A model generated the notes under the pieces. That model did not search any database. It was not told the DNA's origin and saw only the letters and a program-made list of their open reading frames with translations. Made by a program: the position numbers and the translations under genes. 39,707 nucleotides of DNA, taken from assembly GCA_945870505.1 (NCBI GenBank), contig CAMBSN010000019.1, positions 1 to 39,707 on the forward strand, written 5' to 3'. The stretch comes from Candidatus Kuenenia stuttgartensis (GTDB lineage Bacteria > Planctomycetota > Planctomycetia > Pirellulales > UBA1268). Shown piece by piece: positions 1,617-37,458 of the stretch (its first letter is position 1; each line of letters starts with the position of its first letter).

Positions 1617-3173
1617 ATGACCGCTTCTGGATATGTCACCGACGTCGCGTACGTCCCGGGCTTCTACCCTCAGATGGCCCCGGTGACTCTGCGGCACGTG
1701 GCCGCGCTCAACGGCGTCTGCCCGCCCGGGACGTCCACGAGTTACCGTTACCTCGAGCTTGGCTGTGGCCTTGGCCGCTCCTTCACCACGCTTGCCGCGG
1801 CGAACCCGCGCGGCGAGTTCATCGGCGTCGATATCAACCCCGATCACACCGCGGCAGCTGCCCGCGACATCGCCGCCGGTAGCCTCGCCAACGCGCGGGT
1901 GATCACCAGCGACTTCGCGTCGCTGCCGGCCGACCTTGGGGAGTTTCAGTTCATCGCCCTCCACGGCGTGTTCAGTTGGGTAGGGCCCGAGGTGCGCGAG
2001 CAGATCCTCGAGGTGGCCCGCGGGCATCTCGCCCCTGGCGGCCTTCTGCTCGTGAGCTACAACGCCATGCCCGGCTGGGCTCACCTCCAGCCGATCCGAG
2101 GGATTCTCAGGCAGTACGCCGCGCTCCGGCAGGGCGACAGCACCCAGCGGGTCCGCGACGCGCTGGCGTATCTCGTGTTTCTCCGCGATCGCCAGGCGAA
2201 ATACTTCCTCGACAACCCGCGGGCCTCGGCCTACCTCGACGCGCTCGTCACGCAGGACCTCCGCTACCTCGTGCACGAGTATCTCAACGAACACTGGACG
2301 AGCTTTTATTTTGCCGAGGTCGCGGAGATGTTCGGCAGCGCGGGGCTTACGTTTGTGGGAAGCCAGCCCGTGCACACGAACTTCTGGGATCTCTGCGTGC
2401 GGCCCGAGTTTCAGGAACTCTTCCGCACCACCCGCGACCGCCTGGTCACGGAGGCTCACAAGGATTTCTGTGCGAACACGGCCTTCCGCTGGGACATTTA
2501 CGCAAAGTCGCCGCAACCGCTCGGTGGCCTGGAGGGTCGGCTCGCCACGACCGACGACCTCGAGTTTCGCGTTGCCCGTCCCGGCACCGCGCTCCCCTTT
2601 CAGTCAAACCTCGGCGTCGTGACGAGCACGGTAGACGGCCCGCTCTACCAGGGACTGCTCGACGCGCTGTCCGCGGGCAGTCTGCCGCTGTCGAAGATCG
2701 TCGCGGATGGGCGGTTCGCCGCCACCCCGCCCGCCGACCTGGCGCGGGCCGTCGATGCGGGTGTGGCCCTGGGCCTGCTGGACGTGTCGGCGGGGCACGT
2801 TCCCGCGCCGGGTGACATTGCAGACGGCGCGGTGGCGATCCCGAGCGGCTTCAATCGCGCAGTGGTTGAAGCCGACTCCCTTGGGGGCCGCGCGGTGGCG
2901 TTGGCAAGCGAGTTGACGGGAACCGGCTGCGTGATCGGGGATCTCGACGCGGCCATGCTGCACGAAGCGATGACGGGCGGCACGGCGGGCCTCGCCGACA
3001 GGCTTGCGTCGCGGCTGGCTGCAAGTGGGCGGGCGCTGCAGCGAGACGGCCAGCGGGTGGACGACTCCGCGGAGCAGCGAAAGCTCGTCGATGCGGCGTG
3101 TGAGGCGTTTTTGAAGACCACGCTCCCGCGGCTGGTGAACGTGGGCGCGGTCACACGCTCATTCCCCGCGTAG
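1617..3173 (+). CDS. Class I SAM-dependent methyltransferase with C-terminal regulatory domain
   Basis: The 518-residue protein has a Rossmann methyltransferase domain in its first 200 residues: motif I is YLELGCGLGRS (about residues 44-54), the acidic end of strand 2 is GVDINPDH, and motif IV is FQFIALHGVFSW. After LLVSYNAMPGW comes the segment that fits the methyltransferase regulatory domain family (MethyTransf_Reg, PF10119). The substrate is unknown. The frame is open further upstream, but those residues are translated REP repeats, so I place the start at ATG 1617, where the family-like sequence begins with YVTDVAYVPGF. No good ribosome site is visible. The TAG stop is supplied by the first bases of a family B repeat that begins at 3169. 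Confidence 0.85.
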   Translation: MTASGYVTDVAYVPGFYPQMAPVTLRHVAALNGVCPPGTSTSYRYLELGCGLGRSFTTLAAANPRGEFIGVDINPDHTAAAARDIAAGSLANARVITSDFASLPADLGEFQFIALHGVFSWVGPEVREQILEVARGHLAPGGLLLVSYNAMPGWAHLQPIRGILRQYAALRQGDSTQRVRDALAYLVFLRDRQAKYFLDNPRASAYLDALVTQDLRYLVHEYLNEHWTSFYFAEVAEMFGSAGLTFVGSQPVHTNFWDLCVRPEFQELFRTTRDRLVTEAHKDFCANTAFRWDIYAKSPQPLGGLEGRLATTDDLEFRVARPGTALPFQSNLGVVTSTVDGPLYQGLLDALSAGSLPLSKIVADGRFAATPPADLARAVDAGVALGLLDVSAGHVPAPGDIADGAVAIPSGFNRAVVEADSLGGRAVALASELTGTGCVIGDLDAAMLHEAMTGGTAGLADRLASRLAASGRALQRDGQRVDDSAEQRKLVDAACEAFLKTTLPRLVNVGAVTRSFPA

Positions 3174-3392
3174 CGCAGGTTGTTAACCTGCGTGCGCTGA
3201 CGTCGAGCGTTCGCTCGGCACAGGTTGAAAACCTGTGCTACTGGGGAGGCACGGTCGCGCTGCCTCACGTAGCGCAGGTTGTTAACCTGCGTGCGCTGGC
3301 GTCGGGCGTTCGCTCGGCACAGGTTGAAAACCTGTGCTACTGGGGAGGCACTATCGCGCTGGCTTACGTAGCGCAGGTTGTTAACCTGCGTC
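3169..3392. repeat. Family B palindromes in a 99-bp tandem array
   Basis: The array has two full 99-bp units starting at 3169 and 3268, then a partial unit from 3367. Each unit contains GTAG followed by a palindrome of arms CGCAGGTT and AACCTGCG, and 30 bp later a second palindrome of arms CACAGGTT and AACCTGTG followed by CTAC. The units differ at only a few linker bases. The array fills most of the gap between two convergent genes (1617-3173 and 3412-4359) and could end transcription from either side. The stop codon of the upstream gene is its GTAG. Confidence 0.9.
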
Positions 3393-4511: not shown

Positions 4512-4526
4512 GCACGGGGGGCAAAT

Positions 4527-4591
4527 GCCACAGGTTGGCAACCTGTGCTACGGGGGGGGCGGCACATGCCACAGGTTGGAAACCTGTGCTC
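4527..4591. repeat. Two family B palindromes
   Basis: Two short hairpins, CACAGGTTGGCAACCTGTG at 4529-4547 and CACAGGTTGGAAACCTGTG from 4570, lie just past the stop codon of the DAHP synthase gene, which ends at 4603 on the minus strand. Each is followed by GCTAC or GCTCC. A role in transcription termination or mRNA 3' end protection is possible but not shown. Confidence 0.8.
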
Positions 4592-4602
4592 CGGGCGGGC
4601 GG

Positions 4603-7445
<2,843 letters not shown>

Positions 7446-17983: not shown

Positions 17984-17997
17984 TGGCAACCTGCGAC

Positions 17998-18142
17998 CGT
18001 AGCGTAGGTTTTCAACCTGCGGCCGTAGCGTAGGTTTTCAACCTGCGGCATATCAGGGAACAGGTTGAAAACCTGTTCTACTTTTCGAAACAGGTTGAAA
18101 ACCTGTTCTACGTTTTGAAACAGGTTGACAACCTGTTCTACG
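17998..18142. repeat. Family B palindromes, five copies in a row
   Basis: Two units of GTAGCGTAGGTTTTCAACCT are followed by three units of AACAGGTTGAAAACCTGTTC, spaced by TACTTTTCG-like linkers at a period of about 30 bases. The last of the three reads GACAACC. A degraded sixth copy may lie at 18149-18164. The array separates the convergent efp and DUF1598 genes; the gap from 17872 to 18172 holds no gene, only elements C and B. Confidence 0.88.
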
Positions 18143-18172
18143 TTTCGGCAGGTGGGAAGCCTGTGCGACGCG

Positions 18173-23467: not shown

Positions 23468-23564
23468 CCGTGGGCCTCGCGAGAAAAGGCCGCATTCTAG
23501 CAGACGGGCCCGGGGGCCTTGAGCATGCGGGAAGCGGGCCCGCAGGATGCGAAAACGGTTGGCC

Positions 23565-23710
23565 CGCAGGTTACCAACCTGCGGCTACGTGGCACAGCCT
23601 TTCGATCCGCAGGTTACCAACCTGCGGCTACGTTCGGAGAAACCGTGGGTGCAGGTTGTCAACCTGCGGCTACGTGGCCAAAACCGTAGGTGCAGGTTGT
23701 CAGCCTGCAC
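23565..23710. repeat. Family B palindromes, four copies
   Basis: Copies near 23565, 23602, 23650 and 23690 read CGCAGGTTACCAACCTGCGG (twice), then GTGCAGGTTGTCAACCTGCG and GTGCAGGTTGTCAGCCTGCA. The first three are followed by CTACGT. The last has lost one pair. They fill the gap between the FHA gene's 3' end and the dnaE start. Confidence 0.85.
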
Positions 23711-24589: not shown

Positions 24590-24662
24590 GCACCCGTAGC
24601 TCAATGGATAGAGCATCGGTCTTCGGAACCGAGGGTTGCAGGTTCGAGTCCTGCCGGGTGTA
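24590..24662 (+). tRNA. tRNA-Arg, anticodon UCG
   Basis: A full cloverleaf can be drawn. The acceptor GCACCCG pairs with CGGGTGT (closing G-U pair), followed by discriminator A. The D arm is GCTC and GAGC. The anticodon arm is TCGGT, loop CTTCGGA, ACCGA. The T arm is GCAGG, loop TTCGAGT, CCTGC. Loop positions 34-36 read TCG, which decodes CGA (Arg). CCA is not encoded. The 3' half is partly duplicated at 26302-26326. Confidence 0.96.
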
Positions 24663-27419: not shown

Positions 27420-27583
27420 GAGATTGAGGCTCCAGAGGGGAAGTCCGCCGATCATACCCGTTTCAACCCGATCTTCCCGATCCACCTAGTCATCCACGAA
27501 TCGTTCGCGTGCGCGGAAGTCTGCGTGAACTGGGAAGCCTTCGTTCCCGTTTTTTCACCCTGCAAACGGCAATCGAATCGGCA

Positions 27584-27612
27584 TTGACCCCAAAAAATCA
27601 CCCCCCTATTGT
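27584..27612 (+). promoter_or_regulatory. Candidate promoter of the structured RNA
   Basis: TTGACC (27584-27589) and TATTGT (27607-27612) are separated by 17 bases, matching the sigma70 consensus at five and four of six positions. Transcription would start near 27619, exactly where the first helix of the RNA candidate begins. The upstream region from 27420 holds no gene; GGGAA and TTCCC at 27532-27548 followed by six T's could end an opposing or earlier transcript. Confidence 0.5.
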
Positions 27613-27618
27613 CCCCTC

Positions 27619-27792
27619 CGCCTGAAGGCCAAGGGGTTGGTGCAACACCCGCCCCACTCGAAGTCGGCGGTGGCACGGAAGCCGGCCGCCGACCTCGAGA
27701 GGGCTCCTCAGGCACGTCCGTCCAATCGCTCCCGGAAACGGTCCAGGTTCTCCGCCCCCCTGGTACCTGGGCCGTTCCGGGGGCCTTTTTTT
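27619..27792 (+). ncRNA. Candidate structured RNA of unknown family, about 174 nt
   Basis: Helices visible by eye are: P1, GCCTGAAGG (27620-27628) with CCTCAGGC (27706-27713), one bulged A; P2, GGGG and GGTG (27633-27642) with CACC and CCCC (27646-27655), loop CAA; P3, CTCGAAGTCGGCGG (27657-27670) with CCGCCGACCTCGAG (27686-27699), 13 of 14 paired and extended by GGC/GCC. P1 encloses P2 and P3 as a three-way junction. A terminator hairpin and seven T's follow. No SRP, 6S, tmRNA, RNase P or common riboswitch signature is seen. It may be free-standing or a leader of the small membrane protein gene at 27850. No good coding frame accounts for it. Confidence 0.5.
27731..27792 (+). terminator. Strong intrinsic terminator
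   Basis: The outer stem is CCCGGAAACGG (27731-27741) with CCGTTCCGGG (27772-27781), one bulged A. The inner stem is CCAGGT (27743-27748) with ACCTGG (27765-27770). GGCC and seven T's (27786-27792) follow. It ends the RNA candidate, 57 bases before the next plus-strand gene. Confidence 0.8.
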
Positions 27793-27849
27793 CCGCGGCC
27801 TCAGCCAGCGGCGGGGCGACGCTAGTCTCCAGCCGGCTACCATGCGTGC

Positions 27850-28056
27850 ATGGCGAAGCCTGTTTCTCACCCCGGTGCCGAGCGGATCATCCTCTGGATC
27901 ATGGTCGGCGTCGTGGCCTGGGGACTGTTTCACGCGATCGGCGCTTGGCGGCTCAACCACGACCCACGACGGATGCTCGTGGTGCTCGCCTGCGTGGCCG
28001 CGTTCCTGGGATTTTGGCTGACGATGCTCGCGGCATGGCGTCGGGCGAGATCGTAG
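27850..28056 (+). CDS. Small two-helix membrane protein
   Basis: The 68-residue protein has two hydrophobic helices, IILWIMVGVVAWGLFHAIGA (about residues 13-32) and MLVVLACVAAFLGFWLTMLA (about 42-61), joined by a short basic loop (WRLNHDPRRM). It ends with basic WRRARS, so both termini should face the cytoplasm. I do not recognise the family. No clear ribosome site precedes ATG 27850. It lies 57 bases after a terminator that closes a structured RNA candidate, and its stop is three bases from the end of the convergent peptidase gene. The two clean helices in one frame argue that it is real. Confidence 0.6.
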   Translation: MAKPVSHPGAERIILWIMVGVVAWGLFHAIGAWRLNHDPRRMLVVLACVAAFLGFWLTMLAAWRRARS

Positions 28057-37223: not shown

Positions 37224-37237
37224 CGGGCGAAGTAGCA

Positions 37238-37458
37238 CCTCAGGTTGCCAACCCGCGGCTACGGGTTCGTGACACGCCCATCACGTAGGTGCAGGTTGGT
37301 AACCTGCACCTGAATCACGCCAGGCGTTGTGTCACCGCAGGTTGCCAACCCGCGGCTACGGGTTCGTGACAAGCCCGCCACGTAGGTGCAGGTTGGTAAT
37401 CTGCACCTGAATCACGCCAGGCGTTGCGTCACCGCAGGTTGCCAACCTGCGGCTACGT
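37238..37458. repeat. Family B palindromes with a 97-bp tandem unit
   Basis: Two 97-bp units start at 37284 and 37381. Each contains GTAGGTGCAGGTTGGTAACC (the second has one change, TAAT), the linker TGAATCACGCCAGGCGTTG and a CCGCAGGTTGCCAACC palindrome. A partial unit precedes them at 37238. The same composite lies at 35640. They fill the gap between convergent genes. Confidence 0.88.

Follow-up and report, generated by a model that had tools for sequence, protein, structure and literature searches.

Our analyses of the window, the whole 39,707-nt stretch of DNA considered here (contig CAMBSN010000019.1, positions 1 to 39,707), revealed that its forward strand probably encodes a previously uncatalogued small RNA at 27619-27792, with start and stop signals of its own (Table 1). 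The hexamers TTGACC and TATTGT are separated by 17 nt (27584-27612), the promoter that a sequence-only reading of this DNA had proposed, and a scan of a 701-nt region gives an expectation of 0.1 such promoter-like sites per shuffle. Comparison shows that this putative sigma70-type promoter is shared: TTGAC, 16-19 nt and TA...T, a layout that corresponds to hexamer spacers of 15-18, lies upstream at 110 of 152 homologous loci, compared with 0.4% of shuffles. The layout was sought within 300 nt, and some of the 42 loci without it may start farther out; across the homologous loci, the implied start lies 17 to 264 nt from the conserved 3′ core. The stretch 27619-27792 folds with an energy of -102.4 kcal/mol (z -6.2), with none of 200 shuffles equally low, and much of this low energy is contributed by the terminator hairpin. 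Among 27 relatives, RNA length ranges from 157 to 190 nt and the differences are non-multiples of three, which makes coding unlikely and agrees with the earlier statement that no reading frame explains the stretch. At gathering level, Rfam 15 gave nothing in the window but a tRNA-Arg at 24590. At E values up to 10, the region 27500-27860 gave five microRNA-type matches and one weak anti-hemB match, all below cut-off, and at the loci of 17 relatives tRNAs alone exceeded the gathering cut-off; no family thus stands above cut-off at 27619-27792 or its counterparts in those relatives. The structured RNA of about 174 nt with its own promoter and terminator that had been proposed is therefore supported and is uncatalogued in Rfam 15. 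The locus looks like a free-standing RNA gene, the transcription of which we infer from its sequence.

Table 1. Features of the predicted RNA gene (positions in the window)
Feature	Position	Strand	Basis
-35 element TTGACC	27584..27589	+	promoter scan; similar layout at 110/152 homologous loci
-10 element TATTGT, C-rich stretch after it	27607..27612	+	promoter scan; layout in homologous loci
Predicted RNA, about 174 nt	27619..27792	+	start inferred from promoter; fold z -6.2; DNA search matched 34/40 genomes, own included
Invariant 5′ element GCCUGAAGGC	27620..27629	+	27/27 relatives, picked by GCCTGAAGG
Helix P2, covarying	27633..27655	+	27-relative alignment
Helix P3, covarying, 17 pairs in the window	27657..27699	+	27-relative alignment
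P3 tip GGC-ACGGAA-GCC, hexaloop ANGGAN at 27675-27680, putative CsrA site	27672..27683	+	family invariance; hexaloop enrichment
Conserved CCAATCG, foot of terminator hairpin (27728 = first paired base)	27722..27728	+	class-wide comparison
Terminator hairpin, class-wide core	27728..27784	+	outer stem near-invariant; middle stem varies with compensation
C-rich loop segment GCCCCCCU	27754..27761	+	nearly unchanged across two orders and five readable loci of a third lineage
T-run of terminator, seven T	27786..27792	+	absent from some relatives

Inside the window's family the whole RNA aligns, and across the order the sequence match is mainly to the 3′ ~70 nt. A covariance model of this 3′ part (R1) matched 277 of 397 class genomes that were at least 90% complete, the window's own genome apart, with one match in 270 of these and two in seven. 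In the window's own order or closer, about 149 of 155 genomes carry the RNA, by a hand count in a kinship-sorted listing with 100 misses beyond that listing taken as outside the order; of the other 242 genomes of the class 128 matched, family f18 supplying 117 and f112 the remaining 11. In a sample of 294 genomes from the phylum, R1 matched 21 (20 in the class and one dubious) and a broader model, R2, matched 20, all in the class, so that neither model found anything convincing outside the class in this sample. The R1 match in a genome of another class (G299, 28.5 bits) resembles an ordinary terminator and is missing from the R2 matches, and was rejected. An exact-pattern scan of named genomes matched at least 117 stretches, and these 117 all entered the analysis; 80 titles among these were all planctomycetes except one that gave only 'bacterium', and carriers among the matches listed are Blastopirellula marina DSM 3645, Bythopirellula, Botrimarina and Fuerstiella. 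We judge the range within the class to comprise Pirellulales, Planctomycetales and part of a third lineage, the order names being ones that we presume from the titles of matched genomes and from recall. For comparisons between loci, L032, L036-L041 and L060 were left out (one genome that had been fetched twice, four loci of 6S RNA, two loci fetched again and one dubious match), L019, L021, L045 and L049 did not fit the core pattern, dereplication took out 11 more, and L075 (Phycisphaeraceae), a match judged false by eye, was dropped, giving 153 loci. Three of the contigs, at L073, L108 and L125, are titled Candidatus Kuenenia stuttgartiensis and have an RNA form like that of the window's family, and their bins or bin names may therefore be wrong.

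The 5′ domain varies widely among class members, and its structure was analyzed in the family alignment of the whole RNA, which holds 27 sequences picked by GCCTGAAGG. Comparison of these 27 distinct relatives shows a predicted family fold that covaries: 19 of the 26 P2 and P3 pairs changed on both sides at least once (5/7, 2/2 and 12/17 by helix), and the covariation score of the whole structure was 0.172, compared with 0.095 when shuffled, a value that none of 500 shuffles reached. Adding the terminator hairpin to the structure gave 92.2% paired cells and 20 pairs with both-side changes; sliding the partner columns by one reduced pairing to ~50%. Two of the three helices proposed from the window's sequence, P2 and P3, were thus borne out in homologues. 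The third, P1 (27620-27628 with 27706-27713), was not, with 50.2% of cells paired in the 27 relatives and 50.5% when shuffled; its 5′ strand GCCUGAAGGC is invariant in all 27, yet the proposed 3′ partner is not kept. The invariant 5′ element might fold into a GCC-UGAA-GGC hairpin. Another conserved module, GGGTCTGCA...TGCGGACCRCGAAG, is located upstream of the core in one branch with long 5′ domains (for example, at L023, L025, L033, L074, L097 and L123), and probably forms a hairpin; its pattern matched at 32 of 151 loci, with a few of these being chance matches.

The tip of P3 presents an ANGGAN hexaloop, which the sequence-only reading had missed. All 27 family members share the A, the GGA and both closing G-C pairs without change; the free loop positions vary (C 21 and U 6 at one; U 17, A 6, C 3 and G 1 at the other), and the third stem pair under the loop has both-side changes (GC 13, AU 7, CG 2, UA 1, unpaired 4). 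When all hexaloop classes with four fixed letters were ranked, ANGGAN came first, in 81 of 134 dereplicated RNAs compared with 4.1 in shuffles. Hairpins matching CANGGANG were present in 74 of 110 predicted transcripts; the control, a stretch of the same length taken from before the promoter, could be placed for 56 of the 110 and in no case contained one. By length, comparison shows the predicted hairpin with its ANGGAN loop in almost every long form (49 of 54, with 130 nt or more before the core), in 25 of 38 medium forms and in none of the 18 short forms (under 60 nt). Two or more such hairpins occur in 15 of the 110 transcripts. At 42 of the 153 loci CANGGANG was absent from the 190 nt examined, L143 among these having no upstream sequence and L075 not being counted. 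The hexaloop was first noticed by eye and the CANGGANG pattern was chosen after seeing the data; the safeguards are the positional control upstream of the promoter, the motif-free hexaloop ranking and the choice of relatives by another motif. A hairpin with an ANGGAN loop is the published consensus for CsrA/RsmE, in which RsmE contacts the A and the GGA (part of PMC7652899). The RNA at 27619-27792 thus probably carries a hairpin of the type gripped by the regulatory protein CsrA, and we infer from its sequence that CsrA would bind it.

The csrA gene was found in 40 of 40 relatives, with 1-14 matches each, and has four matches in the window's genome. Three host CsrA copies were read, and one host CsrA compared with solved structures matched CsrA chains over its first 58 residues, the best being 1y00, with a further match to 2jpp, which we take to be an RsmE-RNA complex. 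Hfq was found in none of the 40 relatives, in a search whose control recovered Hfq in 5 of 14 known genomes. As an observation in its own right, csrA is multiplied in the class, with up to 17 matches per genome, compared with 0-2 in each of 91 genomes sampled from other classes; in the phylum sample, 7 of 7 class genomes have 4-17 csrA matches and 30 of the 91 other genomes have any. The idea that RNA presence tracks csrA number was rejected, as nine class genomes of f111, f113 and f114 have 2-11 csrA matches yet no detectable RNA, and for the same reason the link between the two is confounded by ancestry.

The most conserved part of the RNA is the terminator hairpin. The hairpin and its seven T had been recognized from the window's sequence, and are present; the class-wide conservation of hairpin and loop had not. 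At 128 of 153 loci at least five T follow the hairpin, and at L006, L007, L016 and L017 the hairpin is kept and the T-run is missing, indicating that the hairpin is not kept as a terminator alone. The core opens with CCAATCGCTCCCGGAA or CCAATCGCCCCCGGAA at 128 of 143 loci, and the prevailing form of the loop among class loci is NCYNNGCCCCCCUGG. Within the window's family the terminator stem is nearly invariant. Class-wide, comparison shows a predicted middle stem that varies with compensation: in the largest length class (31 dereplicated RNAs), native arms gave -24.78 kcal/mol, compared with -21.29 kcal/mol when the 3′ arms were permuted among species, a mean cost of 3.5 kcal/mol, and none of 300 permutations was as low as native. 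In the smaller length classes (n = 10 and n = 8), 0/300 and 3/300 permutations were as low. The compensation is clear on averages and not per RNA; when arms were swapped singly, the native arm equalled or surpassed the best of 30 swapped arms in just 21 of 100 hairpins, 9 of the 153 hairpins having been left out as failing the pattern of this test. Over 66 class-wide cores, 97.8% of cells were paired at 11 conserved pairs, three of which have both-side changes, a number equalled by some slid controls; the outer stem hardly varies and therefore gives little information on its pairing. A general anti-Shine-Dalgarno role for the C-rich loop was rejected, as its complement GGGGG occurs 11 times before 573 mechanically called starts compared with 20 when shuffled; GGAGG before the same starts occurs 39 times compared with 17.

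Taken together, the comparisons make it fairly probable, in our estimate, that this is a usually single-copy, trans-acting small RNA of one planctomycete class, on which CsrA would dock at the 5′ hairpin and in which the C-rich loop would face a partner. Of the several CsrA proteins in the host, at least one would bind the hexaloop hairpin. The working end would be the near-invariant 3′ module (CCAAUCGC and the C-rich loop), pairing with a partner or being bound by one; that the working end should be the 3′ hairpin follows from the C-rich-loop hairpin being common to all forms seen. Conversely, CsrA docking cannot be the core function because the ANGGAN hexaloop is not universal, and the CsrA-type hairpin would be an added module of the longer forms. 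Other results that weigh against this reading are the single CsrA-type site of most copies, the many csrA copies of class genomes in which no RNA was detected, the lack of GGGGG enrichment before the called starts and the outcome of the single arm swaps. Docking might stabilize or present the RNA, or the RNA might draw off part of the CsrA pool. A more tentative extension, which we consider less likely than not, makes the RNA a hub of Hfq-free CsrA riboregulation, with the CsrA paralogues acting as a chaperone on the ANGGAN hairpin and the C-rich loop pairing with shared targets. Such an RNA would depend on CsrA, act by base pairing and be shared by entire orders of bacteria. What we rate as new here is the joint presence, in one putative free-standing RNA, of a CsrA-type hairpin and a conserved C-rich terminator loop.

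The strongest competitor, which we consider rather unlikely, is a trans-acting RNA whose function resides in the C-rich terminator loop alone, antisense to G-rich RNA or protein-binding, with ANGGAN a lineage-specific decoration or stability element that does not involve CsrA. The core is indeed kept where the 5′ domain shrinks to tens of nucleotides, and in the five readable of six f112 loci GCCCCCCUGG(A/G)AC survives despite a different stem sequence and the loss of CCAAUCG. There is also a precedent in RepG of Helicobacter pylori, a free-standing RNA in which a C/U-rich terminator loop is the working part and pairs with a G-repeat (part of PMC8295292). RepG shares its C-rich terminator loop with the planctomycete RNA; the latter differs in that its loop, GCCCCCCU, is conserved across orders, in its extra ANGGAN hairpin and in the lack of general G-run enrichment before the 573 mechanically called starts, which itself speaks against a function of the loop alone. 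Further against this alternative, ANGGAN is the top hexaloop class, and the two positions left free are those that CsrA leaves free (part of PMC7652899).

A sponge that titrates CsrA in the manner of CsrB or RsmZ, for which the ANGGAN hairpins, the free-standing gene and the several CsrA paralogues might argue, is improbable. Gammaproteobacterial CsrB/CsrC and RsmX/Y/Z are likewise free-standing, with GGA in hairpin loops and an ANGGAN hexaloop (part of PMC7652899), but CsrB has 22 GGA (same part of that source), whereas the planctomycete RNA usually has one such hairpin. Titrating RNAs carry many sites; here two or more were found in just the 15 of 110 transcripts given above, the window's RNA has one hairpin site and two GGA in total, one of which is inside the terminator stem, and the short forms have no site at all. 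Because most copies have one CsrA-type hairpin, the RNA is not CsrB-like. Rfam gave no match to CsrB/CsrC or RsmX/Y/Z at 27619-27792, and we know of no conserved C-rich terminator loop in those RNAs. The hairpin loops of the TwoAYGGAY motif are, as its name says, AYGGAY, and fit ANGGAN. That motif, with which we compared the RNA by description alone, is rated a probable RNA and not cis-regulatory, and its taxa are given as human gut, gammaproteobacteria and Clostridiales (table in part of PMC2864571). The Rhodopirellula-1 motif, found in Planctomycetes and also in Proteobacteria and lacking an Rfam number, is rated ambiguous as an RNA and probably cis-regulatory (part of PMC2864571); the comparison here is by description, and the two may be the same RNA. 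A literature search for such a planctomycete RNA found none, within a scope that left most subscription journals outside and so does not establish absence from print.

The sequence-only reading had offered two alternatives, a free-standing RNA and a leader controlling the two-helix membrane protein at 27850, and the former is favored by the RNA's own promoter and by neighbors that are not conserved. A cis-acting leader or attenuator for this downstream 68-aa protein is very improbable, although 57 nt separate the end of the T-run from the ORF and the layout is attenuator-like. Comparison shows no gene that appears linked to the RNA: with neighbors taken as ORFs of at least 60 aa picked by length (crude calls, n = 627, contig ends cutting some loci), downstream genes differ among the 153 loci, the biggest downstream cluster accounting for 14, in 8 of which it is the first same-strand gene. 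Among the other neighbor clusters, one of 24 loci is made up of upstream ORFs on the same strand, and two, of 13 and 12 loci, lie downstream on the opposite strand; in the window, the 24-locus cluster seems to be the shadow of an opposite-strand thioredoxin-like gene (Pfam). Since no neighboring gene is conserved, a leader role is unlikely. Also against it, the sole alternative pairing considered, between the C-rich loop and the GGGGGC strand of the terminator, was rejected by eye, as many forms keep the loop with just GGG there, where this pairing is impossible.

We give almost no credence to a diverged copy of a housekeeping RNA, 6S (RF00013) or small SRP RNA (RF00169), which are likewise broadly kept and single-copy, as our RNA is usually single, class-wide and endowed with a good promoter, but Rfam gave no match at E 10 beyond noise and none to either family here, in keeping with the earlier statement that SRP and 6S motifs are absent, and both RNAs lie elsewhere, SRP RNA in 38 of 40 relatives, G000 included (on contig C58 in the host, the window being C19), and 6S in 4 of 40, one of the four over cut-off. 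The 6S matches are those at L036, L037, L038 and L039, and their sparsity suggests a diverged planctomycete 6S RNA.

To our knowledge, conservation throughout an entire bacterial order is seen in few regulatory small RNAs. A review table gives 8 for Planctomycetes/Verrucomicrobia/Chlamydiae compared with 345 for Proteobacteria, which we read as small-RNA numbers (part of PMC9029176). With matches in about 149 of the 155 genomes sampled from the order, the RNA is a strong candidate for a central role. It would offer a handle on RNA regulation without recognizable Hfq, given none in the 40 relatives, and on why a single genome can have as many as 17 csrA matches. The claim is testable, since the RNA is present in named strains, Blastopirellula marina DSM 3645 being one.

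Apart from the RNA gene, tandem palindromic repeat clusters of CAGGTTNNNAACCTG, with variants, recur through the window at 3169-3391, 4516-4603, 17987-18147, 23564-23708 and 37236-37457, and resemble a REP-type element.
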